DNA of 53,458 bases from Deltaproteobacteria bacterium (GTDB lineage: Bacteria > Myxococcota_A > Polyangia > JAAYKL01), in the NCBI GenBank assembly GCA_028713995.1, contig JAQTNF010000014.1:1-53458 (forward strand). Reading direction: 5' to 3'. Position numbers and translations under genes: made by a program. Below are positions 36,726 to 46,327 of this stretch, piece after piece. The stretch's first letter is position 1. Every line of letters begins with the position of its first letter. The notes below the pieces were generated by a model. The model made no database searches. It was given only the letters and a program-made list of their open reading frames with translations, and was not told where the DNA came from.

Positions 36726-36742
36726 CTGGCACGGAAGTCGCA
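36726..36742 (+). promoter_or_regulatory. Sigma54-type (-24/-12) promoter of the redox operon
   Basis: CTGGCACGGAAGTCGCA matches the sigma54 consensus YTGGCACGRNNNTTGCW at every defined position except one (TCGC for TTGC). The GG (36728-36729) and GC (36740-36741) are separated by the required 10 bases. The start site would fall near 36753, ~30 bases before the ATG at 36783 with its GGAGG. Activation would need an NtrC-type protein such as the one at 31858-33207. Confidence 0.6.
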
Positions 36743-36782: not shown

Positions 36783-37094
36783 ATGACGGTGAACAAAAAG
36801 AGAATCGAGCCAATCGCCGCGGGCGCCGCGAGGGATCTCAGCCTGTGCTCCACCTGCAACGATGTGGAGACCTGTACTTCTCGGAAGAATTGGCGGGGCC
36901 CCGTGGTCTTCTGCGAGGAGTTCGACTGCCGCGCGGCCGCGACAATGTCCGCCCCCAGGCTTGAGGTCGTGTCTGTTGCCCCGCCGCTCGCCGCGGGCCG
37001 GATGGGCGGTCTTTGCACGAACTGCGGCCGCCGCACGGAATGCGCCCTGCCCACACATGAAGGGGGCGTGTGGCACTGCGAGGAATACGACTGA
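36783..37094 (+). CDS. Small Cys-rich protein leading the redox operon
   Basis: The protein has 103 residues, starting at 36783 after GCGGAGG. It has two similar Cys modules: [20 protein letters not shown]...FCEEFDC (~21-49) and [20 protein letters not shown]...HCEEYD (~76-103), each C-x2-C-x(4-5)-C-x(11-13)-C, the spacing of a small zinc ribbon or a cluster carrier. No membrane segment. Proteins ending GGVWHCEEY are often found beside NuoE/NuoF- and hydrogenase-like genes in anaerobes; a role in assembly or electron transfer is inferred only. It lies 13 bases before the NuoE-like gene. Confidence 0.75.
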
Positions 37095-37107: not shown

Positions 37108-37995
37108 ATGGCTGATCTCGGCAAAACGACCGTGCATGAACGGGAACCGGTGGACCCCGAGCTGATCCGGGACATCCTCGCCAAGCACGACGGTGAGCAG
37201 GGCGGGCTCATCGCGATCCTCGAGGACATCCAGACCGAGTACGGGTTCCTCCCGGAAGACGCTCTTCGAACCGTCGCCGAGTCGATGGGGCGGCCCTTGA
37301 TCGACATTTACGGAGTCGCGAGGTTCTACCACTGCTTCAGCCTGAAGCCGCGCGGCAAGCATGTCATCTCCGCGTGCCTCGGCACCGCCTGTCACGTGCG
37401 CGGCGCGCCGGCCATCGTCGAGGAGCTCGAGCGGCAGCTCAAGATCCGCGTGGACGAGACGACGCAGGACAAGGAGTTCACTCTCAAGACGGTGAACTGC
37501 CTGGGCGCGTGCGCCCTCGGGCCGGTGGCCGTGGTCGACGGCCGCACCTTCTCCAAGCTGCGCAGGTCCAAGGTCAAGCCGCTGCTCGAGCAGGCGGCCG
37601 CCGGGAACGACGGGGTCGAGATCGGGAAGGATGTCCGCATCTTCCCCGTGGACGTGAGCTGCCCCCGCTGCAACCACAGCCTGATGGACGACTCGTTCTT
37701 CATCGAGGGGCGGCCGTCCATACGCGTCACGGTGTCCTTCAACCACAAGCACGGCTGGCTGCGCTTGGCGTCGCTGTACGGCAGGTACAACGTCTACTCG
37801 GAGTACGAGGTGCCTCAGAGCTCCGTCGTCGAGATGTTCTGCCCGCACTGCCACACGGAGCTGACGAGCTCGTGGCAATGCCCCACGTGCGGCGCGCCCA
37901 TGGTCCAGATGATCGTGAGGGGCGGCGGCGTCGTGCGCATCTGCTCGCGCCGCGGGTGCTGCGGCTCGAGAAGCCACATGCTCGACTTGATATGA
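37108..37995 (+). CDS. NuoE-like [2Fe-2S] thioredoxin-fold subunit with extra zinc-ribbon domain
   Basis: The protein has 295 residues, starting at 37108; the family is normally ~160. Residues 15-165 are NuoE/HydC-like: [36 protein letters not shown], and the 2Fe-2S ligands Cys90, Cys95, Cys131, Cys135 (CLGTAC, CLGAC). The added ~130 residues carry several CxxC motifs (Cys185/188, Cys245/248, Cys258/261 and Cys279/284/285), suggesting zinc ribbons or a further cluster. In complex I, Hyd and Stn-type enzymes this subunit passes electrons from the NuoF flavin. It is the second gene of a five-gene redox operon, 9 bases before the NuoF fusion. The extension is unusual. Confidence 0.9.
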
Positions 37996-38004
37996 GGTGA
38001 AAAG

Positions 38005-41000
38005 ATGGCGCGGTTTGGTTCCATTGAAGAGCTGCACGGTTTCAGGGAGATGCTGCGCGACAACCCGCAGGGGAAGCGCCCGCGCATCGTGGTATGCGCC
38101 GGCACGGCGTGTCAGGCCTCAAGCTCGAGCGACATCATCCGGATCGCGAAGAAGCACATCATCGAGGAGAACCTCTTCGACAGGATTTCGATCGGAATCA
38201 CGGGCTGTCACGGGTTCTGCGAGATGGGGCCGTTCGTGCTGACCCTGCCCCAGAACGCGTTCTACGCCCAGGTCAAGCTCGAGGACGTGCCGCGCATCAT
38301 CGGCGCGGTGCTGGCCGGCGCCTACGTCGAGGATCTCCTGTACCGGGATCCGAAGACCGGGGAGGTGTACCGCAGCAGGGACGACATCCCGTTCTTCAAG
38401 AACCAGCGGCGCTCGATCCTGGGACTCAACCAGCACGTGGATCCCATCCGGATCAACGACTACGTGGCGGCCATGGGCTACCAGGCCCTCGAGCTGGCCC
38501 TCGGCCGGAAGGACCCCGCGTGGGTCGTGGGCCAGGTGAAGAGATCGGGGCTGCGGGGCCGCGGCGGCGCGGGCTTCCTGACCGGCGCCAAGTGGGAGCT
38601 GCTCGCGCGTGCGAACGGGTCGTCCGGAAAGTACCTCGTGTGCAACGCCGACGAGGGCGACCCCGGCGCGTACATGGATCGCAGCATCCTCGAGGGCAAC
38701 CCGCACAGCATCATCGAGGGGATGACCATCGGCGCGTACGGCACCGGGGCGACCGAGGGCGTAGTCTACGTGCGCAACGAGTACCCGCTCGCGATCAAGC
38801 ACCTCACCATCGCCCTCCGGCAGGCGCGGGACATGGGGCTCCTCGGCGAGAACATCCTCGGGACCGGCTTCTCCTTCGACGTCTCGGTGGTGCGCGGGGC
38901 GGGCGCGTTCGTGTGCGGCGAGGAGACGGCGCTCATGCGGTCGATCGAGGGCAGGACGGGCGAGCCGCGCCAGAGACCGCCGTTCCCGATTGAGAAGGGC
39001 ATCAACGGCAGGCCGACGTCCATCAACAACGTGGAGACGTGGGCGAATGTCCCGTTCATCTTCCGGCAGGGCGCGGACGAGTTCGCCCGGGTCGGGACGC
39101 CCGGCAACTCCGGCACCAAGATCTTCAGCCTCGTCGGCAAGATCAGAAACACGGGCCTCGTCGAGGTGCCCATGGGCGTGACGATCCGGCGGATCGTTTA
39201 CGACATCGGCGGCGGGCCGTCGGGCAAGGCCCGCATCAAGGCCGTGCAGACCGGCGGGCCGTCCGGCGGTTGCATCCCGGCCGAGAAGTTCGATCTCGCC
39301 ATCGACTACGACAGCCTGGCCAAGGCCGGCTCGATCATGGGCTCCGGCGGCATGATCGTGATGGACGAGAACACGTGCATGGTGGACGTGGCGCGGTACT
39401 ACATGAACTTCCTGCGCAAGGAGTCGTGCGGCAAGTGCTTTACCTGCCGCAAGGGCACGCAGCGCATGTACGAGCTCCTGGACGACATCACCAAGGGGCG
39501 CGGCAGGCTCGAGGACCTCGACCTGCTCAAGGAGCTTGCGGTCGCGGTGAAGGAGTCGACCATGTGCGGGCTCGGCCAGACCGCGGCGAACCCCGTGCTC
39601 AGCACGCTCAAGTACTTCCGCCACGAGTACGAGCGGCACATCGTCGACAAGAGGTGCGACGCGCTCGTCTGCAAGGAGCTGACCGGCGCGGCGTGCCAGC
39701 GGACGTGCCCGCTGGGCACCGAGGCGTGGCGCTACGTGGCCCACATCCGGCGCGGGGAGTACGATCAAGCGTACCGCGTGATCCGGGAGGCGAACCCCTT
39801 CCCGTCGGTCTGCGCGCGGGTGTGCAACCACCCGTGCGAGAGCCGGTGCAAGGCGGGCGACGGCGGCAACCAGCCCGTGGCGATCCGGGCGCTCAAGCGC
39901 TTCGTCGTCGATCGCGTGGATCCTTCCGTCTACAAGGCGAGCAAGGCCGCGAAGAGCACGCCGCCCCCCCCTCGCGTGGCGATCGTGGGAGCCGGGCCGG
40001 CCGGGCTCGCAGCCGCCCATTACCTCTCGCTGCAGGGCTACCCCAGCACGGTTTTCGAGTCGGAGGACCGTCCCGGCGGCATGCTGTGGGGCGGCATCCC
40101 GGAGTACCGGCTGCCGCGGGAGACCCTGCGCAAGGAGATCGATGCCGTCGTCGACGGCAACGTCACGCTCGAATGCAAGAAGAGGCTGGGAGTCGACATG
40201 ACGATCGGCGGCCTTTTCGCGGAGGGCTTCAAAGCCGTCTTCCTCGCGCTCGGAGCGCACAAGAGCCGGCGGCTCGGGCTCGAGGGTGAGGACGTGGCCG
40301 GCGTCCACCCCTCCATGCAATTCCTCAAGGCCTACAACCTGCGGGGGGAGAGCTTGGCTCAGGGTCACGTCGGCGTCGTCGGCGGAGGGAACTCGGCCGT
40401 GGACGCGGCGAGGCTGGCGCTCCGGCAGAAGGGCGTGAAGAGCGTTACGATCTTCTACCGGCGCACCCGCGAGGAGATGCCGGCCTTCGAGGAGGAGATC
40501 GAGGAGGCGCTGCACGAGGGCGTGCGGCTCGAGGTGCTGGTCGCGCCGACACGCATCCTCTCGAAGAGCGGCAAGCTCACCGGCGTCGAGCTCCTGAAGA
40601 ACGAGCTGGGGCCCCTGGACGCCTCGGGCCGCCGCGCGCCGGTCCCCGTCGCGGGATCGGAGCACGTCGTCGAGCTCGATACCCTGATCGTGGGCATCGG
40701 CGAGGAGCCGACCGTCGAGTGCGTCACGGGGGAAAACGGGACCAGCGTCGGCCTCGTGGACGGCAACCGCGTCAAAACGGACTGCCGCACGATGAGCACC
40801 AGCATGCCGGGCGTGTTTGCGGGCGGCGACGTGGAAACCGGCCCGAAGACCGTCGTGGACGCCATCGCCGCGGGCAAGAAGGCCGCCGCGATCATCGGCA
40901 GGTACTTGCGCGGCGAGGCCCTTGAGCAACCGGCGGTGCCGGCGCTGCCGCGGATCTACGTGGAGCCGATGCCGTCCGGGGACGGGGATGCCATGGATCT

Positions 41001-41169
41001 GCCGCGGGTCGTCCCGGCCACCCTCAAGGTGGAGGCGAGGCGGTCGTGCATGGCCGAGGTGGAAGGCGTCGTGTCCGAGACGGACGCCGTGCGGGAGGCA
41101 TCCCGGTGCCTGAGGTGCGATCTCGAGTTCACGCAGCCGAAGCCCGCCGCAGTGAAAGAGTCGGCGTAG
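38005..41169 (+). CDS. NuoF-NfnB/GltD fusion: flavin-FeS NAD(P)H oxidoreductase subunit
   Basis: The protein has 1054 residues in three parts. Residues 25-80: 2Fe-2S thioredoxin-like (Cys31, 36, 68, 72). Residues ~110-545: NuoF core with FMN/NADH loop GRGGAGF (185-191), CNADEGDPGAY, and a 4Fe-4S site Cys475/478/481/521. Residues ~550-970: GltD/NfnB-like module with Cys564/568 and Cys603/607/611/615 for two 4Fe-4S clusters, FAD motif GAGPAG (662-667), and NAD(P) motif GGGNSA (793-798) followed by YRRT, typical of NADPH binders. The layout matches the large subunit of Stn-type transhydrogenases and SfrB/Nfn-related enzymes, where flavin bifurcation links NADH, NADPH and ferredoxin. Cytosolic. 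Which flavin bifurcates is inferred, not shown. Confidence 0.92.
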   Translation: MARFGSIEELHGFREMLRDNPQGKRPRIVVCAGTACQASSSSDIIRIAKKHIIEENLFDRISIGITGCHGFCEMGPFVLTLPQNAFYAQVKLEDVPRIIGAVLAGAYVEDLLYRDPKTGEVYRSRDDIPFFKNQRRSILGLNQHVDPIRINDYVAAMGYQALELALGRKDPAWVVGQVKRSGLRGRGGAGFLTGAKWELLARANGSSGKYLVCNADEGDPGAYMDRSILEGNPHSIIEGMTIGAYGTGATEGVVYVRNEYPLAIKHLTIALRQARDMGLLGENILGTGFSFDVSVVRGAGAFVCGEETALMRSIEGRTGEPRQRPPFPIEKGINGRPTSINNVETWANVPFIFRQGADEFARVGTPGNSGTKIFSLVGKIRNTGLVEVPMGVTIRRIVYDIGGGPSGKARIKAVQTGGPSGGCIPAEKFDLAIDYDSLAKAGSIMGSGGMIVMDENTCMVDVARYYMNFLRKESCGKCFTCRKGTQRMYELLDDITKGRGRLEDLDLLKELAVAVKESTMCGLGQTAANPVLSTLKYFRHEYERHIVDKRCDALVCKELTGAACQRTCPLGTEAWRYVAHIRRGEYDQAYRVIREANPFPSVCARVCNHPCESRCKAGDGGNQPVAIRALKRFVVDRVDPSVYKASKAAKSTPPPPRVAIVGAGPAGLAAAHYLSLQGYPSTVFESEDRPGGMLWGGIPEYRLPRETLRKEIDAVVDGNVTLECKKRLGVDMTIGGLFAEGFKAVFLALGAHKSRRLGLEGEDVAGVHPSMQFLKAYNLRGESLAQGHVGVVGGGNSAVDAARLALRQKGVKSVTIFYRRTREEMPAFEEEIEEALHEGVRLEVLVAPTRILSKSGKLTGVELLKNELGPLDASGRRAPVPVAGSEHVVELDTLIVGIGEEPTVECVTGENGTSVGLVDGNRVKTDCRTMSTSMPGVFAGGDVETGPKTVVDAIAAGKKAAAIIGRYLRGEALEQPAVPALPRIYVEPMPSGDGDAMDLPRVVPATLKVEARRSCMAEVEGVVSETDAVREASRCLRCDLEFTQPKPAAVKESA

Positions 41170-41181
41170 GAGGCCCACGCT

Positions 41182-41859
41182 ATGATCACCTTGAACATCA
41201 ACGGCCTCAACGTCTCAGTCGAAGAGGGCACCACCGTGCTCGAGGCCGCGCGTTTCATCGGCTTCCCGATCCCGACCCTGTGCCACATGGACGGCCTCAG
41301 CCCCTACGGGGCCTGTCGCGTGTGCCTCGTGGAGATCGGGAAGGAGCCGAGGACGAAGCTCGTGTCGTCGTGCACGTATCCAGCAGAGGAAGGGCTCGTG
41401 GTCCGCACGGCATCCTCGCGCGTGGTCCGCACGCGCAGGATGGTCATCGAGCTCCTCCTGGCGAGCTGCCCGCAGTCCAAGGTCATCCAGGACCTGGCGT
41501 CGTCCCATGGCGTGAACAAGCAGCGCTTCAAGCAGGAGCACGACGACTGCATCCTGTGCGGCCTGTGCGTGCGCATGTGCTCGGAGCAGATGATGGCAAA
41601 GGCCATCGGCTTCAGCGGCAGGGGGAACGAGAGGGCCCTCGGCACGCCGTTCAACGTCAAGTCCGAGGCATGCAGGCAGTGCGGCGGGTGCATCTACGTG
41701 TGCCCCGCGTGCCAGCTGCGCTGCTCCTACACGGAAAAGGACAGTCCCGTCTGCGGAGGCTGCCAGAACCTGCCCCCGCCGTGTCTCGAGAAGGAGAAGT
41801 TCGACGACATGATGTGCTTCATGTCGCCCTGTGTCGCCTGTGAAATCGCCCCGAAATGA
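41182..41859 (+). CDS. Ferredoxin-type 2Fe-2S/2x4Fe-4S electron-transfer subunit (NuoG/HydA N-terminal like)
   Basis: The protein has 225 residues. The N-terminal plant-type 2Fe-2S domain has Cys34, 45, 48, 64 (YGACRVCLVEIG). The NuoG His-Cys 4Fe-4S site is degenerate (only ASCPQS remains). Two 4Fe-4S clusters follow: Cys123/126/129/133 (CILCGLCVRMC) and Cys164/167/170/174 (CRQCGGCIYVC). A remarkable C-terminal tail has eight more cysteines (177, 181, 191, 194, 201, 212, 217, 220), enough for one or two additional clusters. It probably bridges the NuoF-type subunit to the FMN subunit or to a soluble ferredoxin. Start 12 bases after the fusion gene. Confidence 0.9.
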   Translation: MITLNINGLNVSVEEGTTVLEAARFIGFPIPTLCHMDGLSPYGACRVCLVEIGKEPRTKLVSSCTYPAEEGLVVRTASSRVVRTRRMVIELLLASCPQSKVIQDLASSHGVNKQRFKQEHDDCILCGLCVRMCSEQMMAKAIGFSGRGNERALGTPFNVKSEACRQCGGCIYVCPACQLRCSYTEKDSPVCGGCQNLPPPCLEKEKFDDMMCFMSPCVACEIAPK

Positions 41860-41882: not shown

Positions 41883-43496
41883 ATGTCGTTTTCAAGGACA
41901 AACGCGTCGGCCGCAACACTCACCAAGAACAGGACCGAGGGATCGATCCAACACAGCTCGGGCATGTGCGTCACGTGCGTCGACGGGTGCATCGGCATGT
42001 GCGAGATCGGGAAGTCGGCCTACCGCGGCCACGAGGTGATCTACCCGCAGCCCTTCGGCGTGATCACCACGGCGGCCGAGAAGGATTACCCGGTCGACTA
42101 TTCCCATTTCAGCATCATGGGCGGGGTCATCGGGGCCAAGGGCATCGAGGCCGACAGCGACAAGGCCGTCTTCCCTGCGGTCAATCTCGAGGTCGTGTTC
42201 GGCCGCGACCGCGGGATCAAGTTCAGGTACCCGTGGCTCATCCCCGGCATCGGCTCCACCAACATCGCCAAGAACAACTGGGAAGGGCTGGCCATCGGAT
42301 CGGCGCTGGCGGGGACGGGGCTCACGATCGGCGAGAACGTGGCGGGCATGGATCCCGAGGCCGTGATCAAGGACGGGCGCGTGGTCGACACCGCCGACCT
42401 GAAGCGCAGGGTGCGGCTCTACAAGGACCATCAGCGCGACGGGTATGGCGCGATCATCGTGCAGGCCAACGTCGAGGACGCGCGCCTCGGGGTCCAGGAG
42501 TACGCCATCGAGAAGCTGGGGGCGCAGGCCGTCGAGATGAAGTGGGGCCAGGGCGCCAAGAACATCGGCGGCGAGGTGAAGATCCGCGAGCTCAAGAAGG
42601 CGCAGATGCTCCATCAGCGGGGCTACATCGTCCTGCCCGATCCCACCGATCCCGTTGTGATTGCAGCCTTCGAGCACGGCGCGTTCAAGGAGTTCGAGCG
42701 GCACTCCCGCGTGGGGATGGTAGACGAAGAAGCCTTCGCGCGGCGAGTGGAGCAACTGCGCAAGGCCGGCGCCAAGTACATCTTCCTCAAGACCGGCGCC
42801 TATCGTCCGGCAGCGCTCGCCCTCGCCGTGTCGTTCGCCTCCAAGTTCAAGCTCGATCTGCTCACCGTGGACGGCGCCGGCGGAGGGACCGGCATGAGCC
42901 CCTGGCGCATGATGAACGAATGGGGCCTGCCGCCGGTCGCGATCCACTCGCTGCTCCACGGCTACGTGAAGCGCGTGGCCGAGGCCGGCGGGCACGTCCC
43001 GGCCATCGCCGTGGCCGGCGGGTTCTCGTTCGAGGACCACATCTTCAAGGCACTGGCGCTCGGCGCGCCCTATGTGAAGCTGGTCGGCATGGCGCGCGCC
43101 CCGATCGCCGCCGCCATGGTCGGCAAGACCATCGGCCAGGCCATCGACAGCGGCAACCTGCCCGTCTACGTGGAGCGGTTCGGGAGCAGCAAGGACGAGA
43201 TCTTCGTCACGTCCGCCTCCCTTCGCGAGGAGATCGGCCACAAGGAGTTCGAGAGCCTGCCCGCGGGCGCCATCGGCCTGTACACCTACTACGAGCGGCT
43301 GGCCCAAGGCGTCAGGCAGCTCATGGCCGGCAGCCGCAAGTTCGCGCTCGAGCACATCTCCCGCGACGACATCGCGTCCCTGACGCGCGAGGCCTCCGAC
43401 ATGAGCGGCATCCCCCACATCATGGACGTGGACAAGGCCGAGGTCGAAGGTATCCTTGGCGGCCGCGCCGCACGCTCGAAGAGCGCCAAGGGTTAG
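41883..43496 (+). CDS. FMN-binding glutamate-synthase-like protein with novel N-terminal Cys motif
   Basis: The protein has 537 residues, starting at 41883 after AAAGGAG (an ATG at 41856 is less likely). It is a glutamate synthase alpha-like TIM barrel: HFSIMGGVIGAKG, GQGAKNIGGEVKI, LTVDGAGGGTGMSPWRMMNEWGLPP and VAGGFSFEDHIFKALALGA; the phosphate-binding loops suit FMN. The glutaminase domain is absent, and the 3Fe-4S ligands of true GltB (C-x5-C-x4-C near NTCPVGVAT) are missing. Instead, the only cysteines are Cys29, 32, 36, 40 in CVTCVDGCIGMC, a probable cluster site. So it is unlikely to be a normal GltS; it may reduce an unknown compound using electrons from the preceding subunits. Confidence 0.88.
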   Translation: MSFSRTNASAATLTKNRTEGSIQHSSGMCVTCVDGCIGMCEIGKSAYRGHEVIYPQPFGVITTAAEKDYPVDYSHFSIMGGVIGAKGIEADSDKAVFPAVNLEVVFGRDRGIKFRYPWLIPGIGSTNIAKNNWEGLAIGSALAGTGLTIGENVAGMDPEAVIKDGRVVDTADLKRRVRLYKDHQRDGYGAIIVQANVEDARLGVQEYAIEKLGAQAVEMKWGQGAKNIGGEVKIRELKKAQMLHQRGYIVLPDPTDPVVIAAFEHGAFKEFERHSRVGMVDEEAFARRVEQLRKAGAKYIFLKTGAYRPAALALAVSFASKFKLDLLTVDGAGGGTGMSPWRMMNEWGLPPVAIHSLLHGYVKRVAEAGGHVPAIAVAGGFSFEDHIFKALALGAPYVKLVGMARAPIAAAMVGKTIGQAIDSGNLPVYVERFGSSKDEIFVTSASLREEIGHKEFESLPAGAIGLYTYYERLAQGVRQLMAGSRKFALEHISRDDIASLTREASDMSGIPHIMDVDKAEVEGILGGRAARSKSAKG

Positions 43497-43625: not shown

Positions 43626-43646
43626 TTGACCCAGAAGGAGGCTCTC

Positions 43647-44198
43647 ATGGCCAATCCATTGCCCAAGCACAGGGCGCGGGAGTACGAGACGATCTTCATT
43701 CTCGACCCCGAGTGCCCCTCGGACGTGACCGACCAGATCGCGGCGCGCCTTCGGGACGTGATCGCGAGATTGGAAGGCAAGCTGCTGCGCGCCGAGAACT
43801 GGGGCCGCAGGCGGCTCGCCTATCCGGTCCGCAAGCACAACAAGGGAATCTATATCTACCTCAAGTACCTGGGGTACTCGGACATGGTGGCCGAGCTCGA
43901 GCGCAACCTGCGCATGATCGAGCGCGTCATCAAGCACATGACGGTCAAGCTCGAGGAGGACGTGAACCCCGAGACCAAGGCCGTGCGCGACGAGGACATC
44001 TCGTTCGTTCCGCAGTTCGAGGAGGAGATCGACGAGCCCGCTCCCCCCGCTCCGGTGGAGGCGGCGGAGCCCGCGGAGAGCGACGCCCCGGCGTGCGCCA
44101 GCTCGGGCTCGGTCGAGCTGGCCGAGGGAGAGGAAAACGAAGACGCTGACACGTCCGACGCGGGCGACGAGCCCGGGTCGGACGAGGAAGAGAAGTAG
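43647..44198 (+). CDS. rpsF: 30S ribosomal protein S6
   Basis: The protein has 183 residues. The ATG at 43647 follows AGAAGGAGG. S6 core (~9-110): YETIFILDPECP, ENWGRRRLAYPVRKHNKGIY, and MIERVIKHMTVKLEED. S6 pairs with S18 on the 30S platform. The protein carries an unusually long acidic tail (~115-183, rich in Glu, Asp, Ala and Pro), absent in E. coli apart from its modified glutamates. First gene of the ribosomal/replication operon, 9 bases before rpsR. Confidence 0.96.
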   Translation: MANPLPKHRAREYETIFILDPECPSDVTDQIAARLRDVIARLEGKLLRAENWGRRRLAYPVRKHNKGIYIYLKYLGYSDMVAELERNLRMIERVIKHMTVKLEEDVNPETKAVRDEDISFVPQFEEEIDEPAPPAPVEAAEPAESDAPACASSGSVELAEGEENEDADTSDAGDEPGSDEEEK

Positions 44199-44207
44199 GA
44201 GGGCGCC

Positions 44208-44459
44208 ATGTCGGAAAGACCGAAAGCAGATGGACGCCGCCGTGGTCGGAGGCGCCGGGTGTGTAGGTTCTGCGCGGACAAGAACCTGAAGATCGACTAC
44301 AAGGACGCGCAGGGAATCCGCTACTTCATCTCGGAGCGGGGCAAGATCGTGCCGCGTCGTATCTCGGGCAACTGCGCCAAGCACCAGCGGCAGATCTGCG
44401 TAGCCATCAAGCGGGCGAGAAACATCGCCCTGATGCCCTTCACGGCGTCGAACAGGTAG
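44208..44459 (+). CDS. rpsR: 30S ribosomal protein S18
   Basis: The protein has 83 residues. Basic N-terminus, then [39 protein letters not shown] and [19 protein letters not shown]. It retains CxxC...C..H, the zinc-binding (C+) form. Overlaps nothing; SD TAGGAGG precedes it. Binds S6 in the 30S subunit. Confidence 0.97.
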
Positions 44460-44468
44460 GAGGGAGCC

Positions 44469-44912
44469 ATGAAGGTCATTCTTCGCGAGGACGTGGCCCA
44501 CCTCGGAAAGCCCGGGGCCGTCGTGTCCGTGAAACCCGGCTATGCCCGCAACTTCCTCATCCCGCAGGGGCTCGCGGCGCTGGCCACCTCGCGCAACATC
44601 AAGATGATGGAGCACGAGCTCAAGGTCATTGAGCGCCAGATCGACACGTCCAAGGCCGAGGCCGAGGAGGTCAAGCAGCGCCTGGCCGCGGTCAGCGTCA
44701 CAGTGGCCAAGCAGGCCGGCGAGAGCGACAAGCTCTTCGGCTCCGTGACCACCAAGGACGTCGAGGCGGCGCTTGCCAAGGAAGGCATCACCGTGGACCG
44801 CAGGCGCATTGTCATCGCCGAGGCGATCAAGGCCCTCGGGGTCTACACGGTGCAGGTGAAGCTGCACGGCGGGCTCGCCGCCGACCTCAAGGTCTGGGTG
44901 GTGCGCCAGTAG
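44469..44912 (+). CDS. rplI: 50S ribosomal protein L9
   Basis: The protein has 147 residues, full length. The N-domain reads MKVILREDVAHLGKPGAVV, VKPGYARNFLIPQGLA; then the long connecting helix and the C-domain (KLFGSVTTKDVEAALAK, ITVDRRRIVIAEAIKALGVYTV). L9 sits at the base of the L1 stalk. Good SD (TAGGAGG). Third gene of the rpsF operon. Confidence 0.97.
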   Translation: MKVILREDVAHLGKPGAVVSVKPGYARNFLIPQGLAALATSRNIKMMEHELKVIERQIDTSKAEAEEVKQRLAAVSVTVAKQAGESDKLFGSVTTKDVEAALAKEGITVDRRRIVIAEAIKALGVYTVQVKLHGGLAADLKVWVVRQ

Positions 44913-44935
44913 GATCCTCACCGCAAGGGGGAACG

Positions 44936-46327
44936 ATGGCCAAGCCGCCTTCGAATCTTCAAGGTCAAGGGTCGAAGCCCGCCCCGTCCGAGGGGCGCGT
45001 CCCTCCCTACAGCCAGGAGAGCGAAGCCGCGGTGCTCGGCGGCATCCTGCTCAAGAACGACGCGCTTCCGGCCGTGCAGGAGATCCTCAACTCCGAGGAC
45101 TTCTACGTGGAGGCGCACCGGCGCATCTATTCGGCCGTGGAGGCCCTGTCGGCCGCGTCCCAGCCCGTGGATCACGTAACGCTCGGCAATGAGCTCAAGA
45201 AGCGCGGCGACCTGGACAAGATCGGGGGGGTCAAGGCGCTCGCCGACCTGACCGAGCACGTGGCGACCGCGGCCAATGTGGAGCACTACGCGCGCATCGT
45301 GAAGGAGAAGGCCGCGGTGCGGCGCATGATCTACGCCGCGGCGCAGGTCATGGCCGACGGGTACGGCGACTACGGCGAGGCCGAGGAGTTCCTGGACGCG
45401 GCCGAGTCGGCCGTTTTCGAGGCCGCGAAGCAGCGAATCCGTTCGCCCTACCAGCACATCACCGAGATCCTGAACAAGACGTTCGGCGAGCTCGAGCTGG
45501 CCGCGGGCCGCGGCGGCGAGATCACGGGCACGCCCTCGGGCTTCGCCCTGCTCGACAAGAAGACCGCCGGGTTCCAGCCGTCCGACCTCGTCATCCTGGC
45601 CGGCCGCCCGTCCATGGGAAAGACCGCGCTGGCGCTCAACATGGCCGTCAACGCCGCGATGAAGACCAAGTTCCCGGTGCTCATCTTCTCGCTCGAGATG
45701 TCGAAGGACCAGGTGGCGCGCCGCATGCTCGCCGCGGAAGGGCGCGTGGACGCGTCCAAGATGAGGTCCAACTCGCTCGCCAAGGACGACTGGCCGCGGC
45801 TCATCGAGGCGGCCAACCGCCTGTCGCAGACGCGCATCTACGTCGACGACTCGCCGGGCATCACGCCCCTCGAGATCCGAGCCAAGTGCCGGCGCCTCGC
45901 GGCCGAGGGCAGGCCCGCGCTCGTGGTCGTCGACTACATGCAGCTCATGCGCGGCGGGTCGCGCCGCACCGACAACCGGGAGCAGGAGATCTCCGAGATC
46001 TCGCGATCGCTCAAGGGGCTCGCCAAGGAGCTCGACATCCCGATCGTCGCCCTGTCCCAGCTCAACCGCGCGGTCGAGAGCCGCACGGACAAGCGGCCCA
46101 TGATGTCGGATCTGCGCGAGTCCGGGGCCATCGAGCAGGACGCGGACCTCATCCTCTTCGTGTACCGCGACGAGTTCTACCACAAGGACTCCGACAAGCA
46201 GGGCATCACCGAGATCATCATCGGCAAGCAGCGCTCCGGCCCGATCGGGACGGTGGAGGTGCGCTTCTTCAGCGAGTACACGCGTTTCGAGAACCTGGCC
46301 GAAGGCGGGGAGCCGGAAGGCTACTGA
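44936..46327 (+). CDS. dnaB: Replicative DNA helicase DnaB
   Basis: The protein has 463 residues. N-terminal domain (~23-125: PYSQESEAAVLGGILL), linker, and RecA-like helicase core with Walker A GRPSMGKT (223-230), Walker B LVVVDYMQLM, then SRSLKGLAKELDIPIVALSQLNR and the Arg finger region near the end (GKQRSGPIGTVEV). Hexameric 5'-3' helicase of the replication fork. No intein. Follows rplI by 23 bases, the classical rpsF-rpsR-rplI-dnaB order. Confidence 0.97.
   Translation: MAKPPSNLQGQGSKPAPSEGRVPPYSQESEAAVLGGILLKNDALPAVQEILNSEDFYVEAHRRIYSAVEALSAASQPVDHVTLGNELKKRGDLDKIGGVKALADLTEHVATAANVEHYARIVKEKAAVRRMIYAAAQVMADGYGDYGEAEEFLDAAESAVFEAAKQRIRSPYQHITEILNKTFGELELAAGRGGEITGTPSGFALLDKKTAGFQPSDLVILAGRPSMGKTALALNMAVNAAMKTKFPVLIFSLEMSKDQVARRMLAAEGRVDASKMRSNSLAKDDWPRLIEAANRLSQTRIYVDDSPGITPLEIRAKCRRLAAEGRPALVVVDYMQLMRGGSRRTDNREQEISEISRSLKGLAKELDIPIVALSQLNRAVESRTDKRPMMSDLRESGAIEQDADLILFVYRDEFYHKDSDKQGITEIIIGKQRSGPIGTVEVRFFSEYTRFENLAEGGEPEGY

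Follow-up and report, generated by a model that had tools for sequence, protein, structure and literature searches.

A conserved GltB-like flavoprotein with an N-terminal four-cysteine motif is encoded alongside NAD(P)H- and ferredoxin-type electron-transfer subunits in many phyla

Analysis of a 53,458-nucleotide stretch of DNA from a Deltaproteobacteria bacterium (contig JAQTNF010000014.1, hereafter the window) revealed a GltB-like FMN-barrel protein that lacks the glutaminase domain and the 3Fe-4S ligands of glutamate synthase, carries an N-terminal four-cysteine (Cys4) motif conserved throughout its family, and is encoded in an electron-transfer operon that is conserved across many phyla. 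The explanation that we place first, with about even confidence, is that this protein is a glutamate synthase (or glutamate oxidoreductase) that works without a glutaminase, uses ammonia and is linked to an NAD(P)H/ferredoxin module through a [4Fe-4S] site. It is favored by the conserved operon and Cys4 motif, the glutamate synthase (GltS)-like barrel and residues, the neighboring glutamate dehydrogenase (GDH) genes, the frequent absence of canonical glutamate synthase (GOGAT), the existence of carriers without either enzyme, and the sigma-54 elements. Weighing against it are the presence of GDH in most carriers, the altered surroundings of the GltS active site, the lack of an ammonia channel domain and of a glutaminase, the absence of the Cys4 site from the three-dimensional model, the moderate strength of the anticorrelation with GOGAT, and a stand-alone subclade linked to PF14518 proteins.

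The GltB-like gene (41883..43496, + strand) encodes 537 residues. Starting from an in-frame ATG further upstream (41856) would lengthen the protein by nine residues; the start at 41883 is preferred because relatives align from residue 1–3. In agreement with the original prediction, translation placed the only cysteines of the protein, C29, C32, C36 and C40, within residues 29–40 in a C-x2-C-x3-C-x3-C arrangement (41967..42002, + strand, 36 bases), a proposed [4Fe-4S] site; the computed probability that four random positions among 537 fall inside a 12-residue span is 3e-5. A Pfam search of the protein matched PF01645 alone (E 2.7e-16, 60.1 bits against a cut-off of 20.4), and an NCBIfam scan gave no match. 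The class-II glutaminase (PF00310), already thought to be missing when the sequence was first read, and the C-terminal GXGXG beta-helix (PF01493) were found neither in the protein nor in the source genome, which is 97% complete. In that genome the GltB-like gene is the sole PF01645 gene found, accompanied by one GDH and two glutamine-synthetase-like genes. A split archaeal GltS or N-methylglutamate synthase was rejected, as the genome holds no companion PF00310 or PF01493 genes.

To place the motif in its family, 99 members were aligned with eight GltB-like controls, one of them Escherichia coli GltB. At the three positions of the 3Fe-4S cysteines, Cys is found in 8/8 controls and in 0/99 family members; in the window protein they correspond to K415, I421 and L426, within the equivalent of the GltB 3Fe-4S loop (residues 415–426, 43125..43160, + strand), where all three cysteines are replaced. 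Conversely, C29, C36 and C40 are present in 99/99 members and C32 in 98/99, the lone exception being a C32S substitution in L033, one of the 80 close relatives. Eighteen more distant members, with identities as low as 42%, also keep the motif; they include stand-alone members (42–61% identity) that have no operon, and the near-invariance of the motif even there indicates that it belongs to the GltB-like enzyme itself and would be a natural entry cluster. The original prediction that the 3Fe-4S ligands are gone thus holds family-wide, and its proposal that electron entry must differ from that of GltB is well supported, given the lost ligands, the family-wide Cys4 motif and the position of the gene in a fixed NuoE/NuoF(-GltD)/HoxU-like electron-transfer operon. 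The motif is standard across the 99-sequence alignment, which is one half of what was to refute the original prediction; the other half, a characterized enzyme tied to the motif, was not encountered.

The predicted structure (AlphaFold) is an FMN barrel with a mean pLDDT of 72.7. Its N-terminal 68 residues have pLDDT values below 50, so the cluster site is not visible in the model; structure prediction, suggested earlier as a way to view the region around the motif, therefore delivered the barrel and left the Cys4 region unresolved. A Foldseek search with the model retrieved glycolate oxidase-type barrels and GltS (7mfm_G, 4.6e-8; 1ofe_A, 5.4e-8; 6s6s_A, 9.6e-7), and searches of PDB sequences, whether by the single protein or by a profile, returned spurious matches only (an SDR at 0.018 and an OMP decarboxylase at 0.03). 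Several residues common to GltS are invariant in the family, namely E151, K220, Q223, A225, K226, K303, D325 and a GGTG loop, whose second glycine is alanine in half of the GltB-type controls; a later pair, G379-G380, is kept in 98/99 and 99/99 members. E151, in a GENV context (42333..42335, + strand), occupies the position of the Glu that is invariant in the GltS motif SGEGG, and residues 220–231 (K-W-G-Q-G-A-K-x-I-G-G-E, 42540..42575, + strand) align with the GltS K-x-x-QGAKPGEGG-(Q/H) loop. The final Gln/His of this loop is Glu in the family (E231), and the GltS G-G-(Q/H)-LPG stretch becomes GGE(V/I). Further family-specific invariants are F271, R273, H274 and R276, which form an F-x-R-H-x-R motif carried on an insertion relative to GltS, and W341 and W347, which are new. 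These departures at E231, FxRHxR, W341 and W347 speak for a reading in which the barrel of the same complex turns over a 2-oxo, imino or amino acid other than 2-oxoglutarate or glutamate, with the neighboring GDH enzymes supplying or using ammonia or amino groups in the same pathway. We regard this reading as less probable; the core GltS residues are kept.

The GltB-like gene is the last of a five-gene operon. The first gene encodes a small, Cys-rich protein of 103 residues (36783..37094, + strand) with two C-x2-C...C motifs and a terminal CEE(F/Y); it matches no Pfam family and probably binds metal. In at least 17 relatives a similar small ORF immediately precedes NuoE. The second gene, with its ATG at 37108 read from the sequence, encodes a NuoE/HoxE/BfuC-like [2Fe-2S] subunit of 295 residues (37108..37995, + strand; PF01257, E 9e-47) whose C-terminal part is zinc-ribbon-like (DZR, 2e-4). 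It is followed by a fusion protein (38005..41169, + strand; PF01512, PF10589, PF14691, PF07992) that joins an NAD(H)/FMN-type NuoF/BfuB-like part (approximately residues 1–546; PF01512, Nuo51 FMN, 1e-45; PF10589, NADH_4Fe-4S, 9e-34) to a GltD/NfnL-like part (approximately 550–1040) with two [4Fe-4S] clusters, FAD and NAD(P)H sites. The SLBB domain (PF10531) of the NuoF-like part scored 19.3 bits, below the cut-off of 27, and reached 28.8 bits in one relative (L153). The fourth gene encodes a HoxU/BfuA-like subunit (41182..41859, + strand; PF13510, E 4e-17; Fer4 dicluster PF12838, 7e-8) with [2Fe-2S] and 2[4Fe-4S] sites and a Cys-rich C-terminus, in which Pfam detected no His/Cys cluster domain. 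Directly downstream of the operon, the translations suggest an rpsF-rpsR-rplI-dnaB-like run (43626–46327).

At least 589 relatives of the GltB-like protein were found in genome records from more than ten phyla. Among the best 80 of these, on which the operon counts are based, HoxU lies beside the GltB-like gene in 79/80 loci, NuoF in 71/80 and NuoE in 62/80, most gaps being due to truncated loci. The NuoF-GltD fusion is present in 51/71 relatives, and NuoF is short in 18/71, a C-terminal 2[4Fe-4S] ferredoxin domain, which helps to define BfuB, standing where GltD would be. This assignment is by length and by sampled sequences: the seven short ones inspected, and in addition L031 and L153 scanned with Pfam, all end in two [4Fe-4S] motifs. 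The GltB-like protein is the most conserved subunit of the operon (77–82% identity across phyla). In the family tree, relations among operon-borne members were not resolved, and the Planctomycetota rows require four changes, which alone are no proof of transfer. Near the operon, approximately 12 loci (L057:112-3087 and about 11 others) also encode a protein of about 990 residues that combines a response-regulator-like part with a pyruvate phosphate dikinase N-terminal domain. Separately, three other genomes of the same class (L017, L018 and L019) encode 547-residue proteins in which a Rieske-like N-terminus is combined with a GltB FMN domain. These proteins retain the 3Fe-4S cysteines (CPVGIATQ) and, judged by length, have no glutaminase domain.

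Divergent family members stand alone, without the electron module, and the notion that the family always needs this module was accordingly rejected. One stand-alone subclade in Planctomycetota (52–56% identity; L140, L146, L148, L150, L151, L152 and L155) adjoins one to three proteins of about 235 residues, of which the two scanned are both haem-oxygenase-like (PF14518), and several of its loci also carry a sigma-54 response regulator and a histidine kinase. The PF14518 neighbors make other chemistry possible and lend some weight to a substrate other than glutamate. The same survey bears on a further alternative, in which the complex is an NADH/NADPH/ferredoxin transhydrogenase of the Nfn or Stn kind whose GltB-like FMN merely relays or stores electrons and no amino acid is made. 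The NuoE, NuoF, GltD and HoxU parts do resemble the Sporomusa Nfn enzyme StnABC, whose activity requires no GltB-like subunit (PMC7483475). However, in the 18/71 relatives in which the NADPH-type GltD part is gone from NuoF the GltB-like subunit is retained, stand-alone GltB-like proteins exist without any electron module, and the supposed relay is the most conserved subunit of all, so that we consider this alternative improbable.

Returning to the glutamate synthase reading, the link of the GltB-like protein with the electron module is well supported, and we infer from the features above the cluster type at the Cys4 motif, the physical complex, the substrate and the direction of the reaction. 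The operon would encode a soluble NAD(P)H/ferredoxin oxidoreductase whose catalytic, FMN-bearing subunit is the GltB-like protein. Electrons from NADH (at the NuoF-like FMN site), NADPH (at the GltD-like FAD site) or ferredoxin would collect in the iron-sulfur chain of NuoE, NuoF and HoxU and then reach the FMN of the barrel by way of a [4Fe-4S] cluster bound to C29, C32, C36 and C40, which would take the place of the 3Fe-4S cluster. This FMN would most likely reduce the imine (2-iminoglutarate) formed from 2-oxoglutarate and free ammonia to glutamate; run in reverse, the enzyme would act as a glutamate oxidase that feeds the same module. In an extended version, possible though in our view unlikely, the complex would be an electron-bifurcating glutamate synthase. 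Oxidation of NADPH (or NADH) by the NuoF/GltD core would send one electron pair downhill to the GltB-like FMN, where 2-oxoglutarate is aminated with free ammonia, and another uphill to ferredoxin, so that the cell would recover energy otherwise lost with GDH or GOGAT. For assumed potentials of −0.37 V for NADPH, −0.50 V for ferredoxin and −0.13 V for glutamate, bifurcation would yield about −21 kJ/mol from NADPH; from NADH it would cost +13.5 at a ferredoxin potential of −0.50 V and roughly break even at −0.42 V. The window NuoF lacks one defining Bfu domain.

The nitrogen metabolism of carrier genomes points toward glutamate. GDH genes flank 10/80 operons in several phyla, against approximately 0.1–0.4 expected from a crude count, and 8/11 of the neighboring GDH genes are co-directional and at most 450 bp away. 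The canonical GOGAT glutaminase is missing from 42/50 carrier genomes. Within Planctomycetota (n = 195), GOGAT occurs in 6/34 carriers and in 65/161 non-carriers (Fisher p ~0.02, uncorrected for kinship), an anticorrelation that is moderate; the metagenome-assembled genomes are incomplete. Strict exclusivity of GOGAT and the GltB-like enzyme was rejected, both being present in 8/50 and 6/34 genomes, respectively. GDH scored above its family cut-off in 46/50 carriers, and the GltB-like enzyme would therefore rarely be the sole route of glutamate synthesis. Four of the 50 carriers (G198, G199, G206 and G218) have neither GDH nor GOGAT, and three of them have glutamine synthetase; G206, in which it was also not detected, is probably an incomplete genome, and G198 (L035, CP070718.1) is a single-chromosome record. 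That nearly all carriers already possess GDH would suit a substrate other than glutamate, yet the GDH neighbors and the missing GOGAT point to glutamate, and no other substrate-specific gene was recognized among the most recurrent neighbors, of which a part are annotated. The original prediction had left room for a reaction other than glutamate synthesis; this indirect evidence, together with the invariant GltS residues, leans the opposite way.

Regulatory signals were also found. A sigma-54 (−24/−12) promoter-like element, TGGCACGGAAGTCGCA (36727..36742, + strand), lies 40 bp upstream of the first ORF of the operon and is the only single-mismatch match to TGGCACGNNNNTTGCW in the 53-kb window; at up to three mismatches the window holds 57 matches, not above chance, and the element, which is no strict match, is suggestive only. 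Strict elements precede 12 of 55 operon starts (54 relatives and the window), whereas the reverse strand gives 0 and mononucleotide shuffles 0.27. Matches to a sigma-54 response regulator family are present in 33 loci and those to a histidine kinase family in 29, for the most part immediately upstream. These data also touch on the catabolic direction, in which, much as when amino acids are fermented, glutamate would be oxidized and NAD(P)+ and ferredoxin would take up its electrons. GDH neighbors can be catabolic, and many carriers are metagenome bins without a known lifestyle. Nevertheless, the glutamate/2-oxoglutarate couple, at approximately −0.13 V, is poorly suited to reduce ferredoxin or generate NADH, and sigma-54 regulation and the missing GOGAT fit assimilation better, which makes net glutamate oxidation improbable in our estimate.

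The GltB-like family is thus widespread, highly conserved and uncharacterized, and often resides in genomes without canonical GOGAT. Nitrogen enters metabolism largely via glutamate, and the NADH- and ferredoxin-handling subunits built together with the GltB-like enzyme suggest that many anaerobic bacteria may make (or oxidize) glutamate by this route. Synthesis of glutamate from free ammonia would fill a nitrogen-assimilation gap in several lineages. If bifurcating, the complex would, to our knowledge, be the first energy-conserving ammonia assimilation enzyme, and an amino acid would join the known third substrates of Bfu-type complexes.

Literature searches on the operon, on 'FMN-binding glutamate synthase' and on ammonia-dependent or glutaminase-lacking glutamate synthases returned no description of the complex and only a mention in Kuenenia. 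The genome G303 encodes two stand-alone family members (approximately 60 and 55% identical) that keep the Cys4 motif and have no NuoEF/HoxU operon alongside, and PF00310 was not found in it. Set against the locus-tag numbers KSMBR1_0034, 0678, 1164 and 3563 published for Kuenenia stuttgartiensis MBR1, the positions of the two glutamine synthetase and two GltB-like genes of G303 form a straight line, with deviations of about 3.3 kb at most across 4.4 Mb. Judged by these positions, the pair is almost certainly the published GltB-like genes of that organism, which are mentioned in the publication and not characterized biochemically there.

The predicted complex was compared with several known systems. 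With bacterial GltB/GltD (NADPH-GOGAT) it shares the PF01645 FMN barrel with its conserved core residues and a GltD-like NAD(P)H module, here fused to NuoF; it differs in having no glutaminase, GXGXG domain or 3Fe-4S ligands, in the N-terminal Cys4 motif that stands in their place, and in the extra NuoE, NuoF and HoxU subunits. The bifurcating Bfu (HydABC-type) family (PMC9304861) has in common with it the BfuC-, BfuB- and BfuA-like subunits, and the HoxU-like subunit resembles BfuA of the Type 2 Bfu enzymes as described there. The main text of PMC9304861 contains neither 'glutamate' nor GltB, and a GltB-like partner is not among its third-substrate types. The C-terminal 2[4Fe-4S] domain of BfuB (IPR017896), absent in the window, where GltD with Fer4_20 is found instead, is kept in 18/71 relatives. 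Finally, the Sporomusa-type Nfn (StnABC) and NfnAB share the NuoE/NuoF-like core and the GltD-like NADPH module; in Stn, however, GltD is joined to a NuoG-like subunit and a GltB-like subunit is lacking, whereas here GltD is joined to NuoF and the GltB-like subunit completes the operon.
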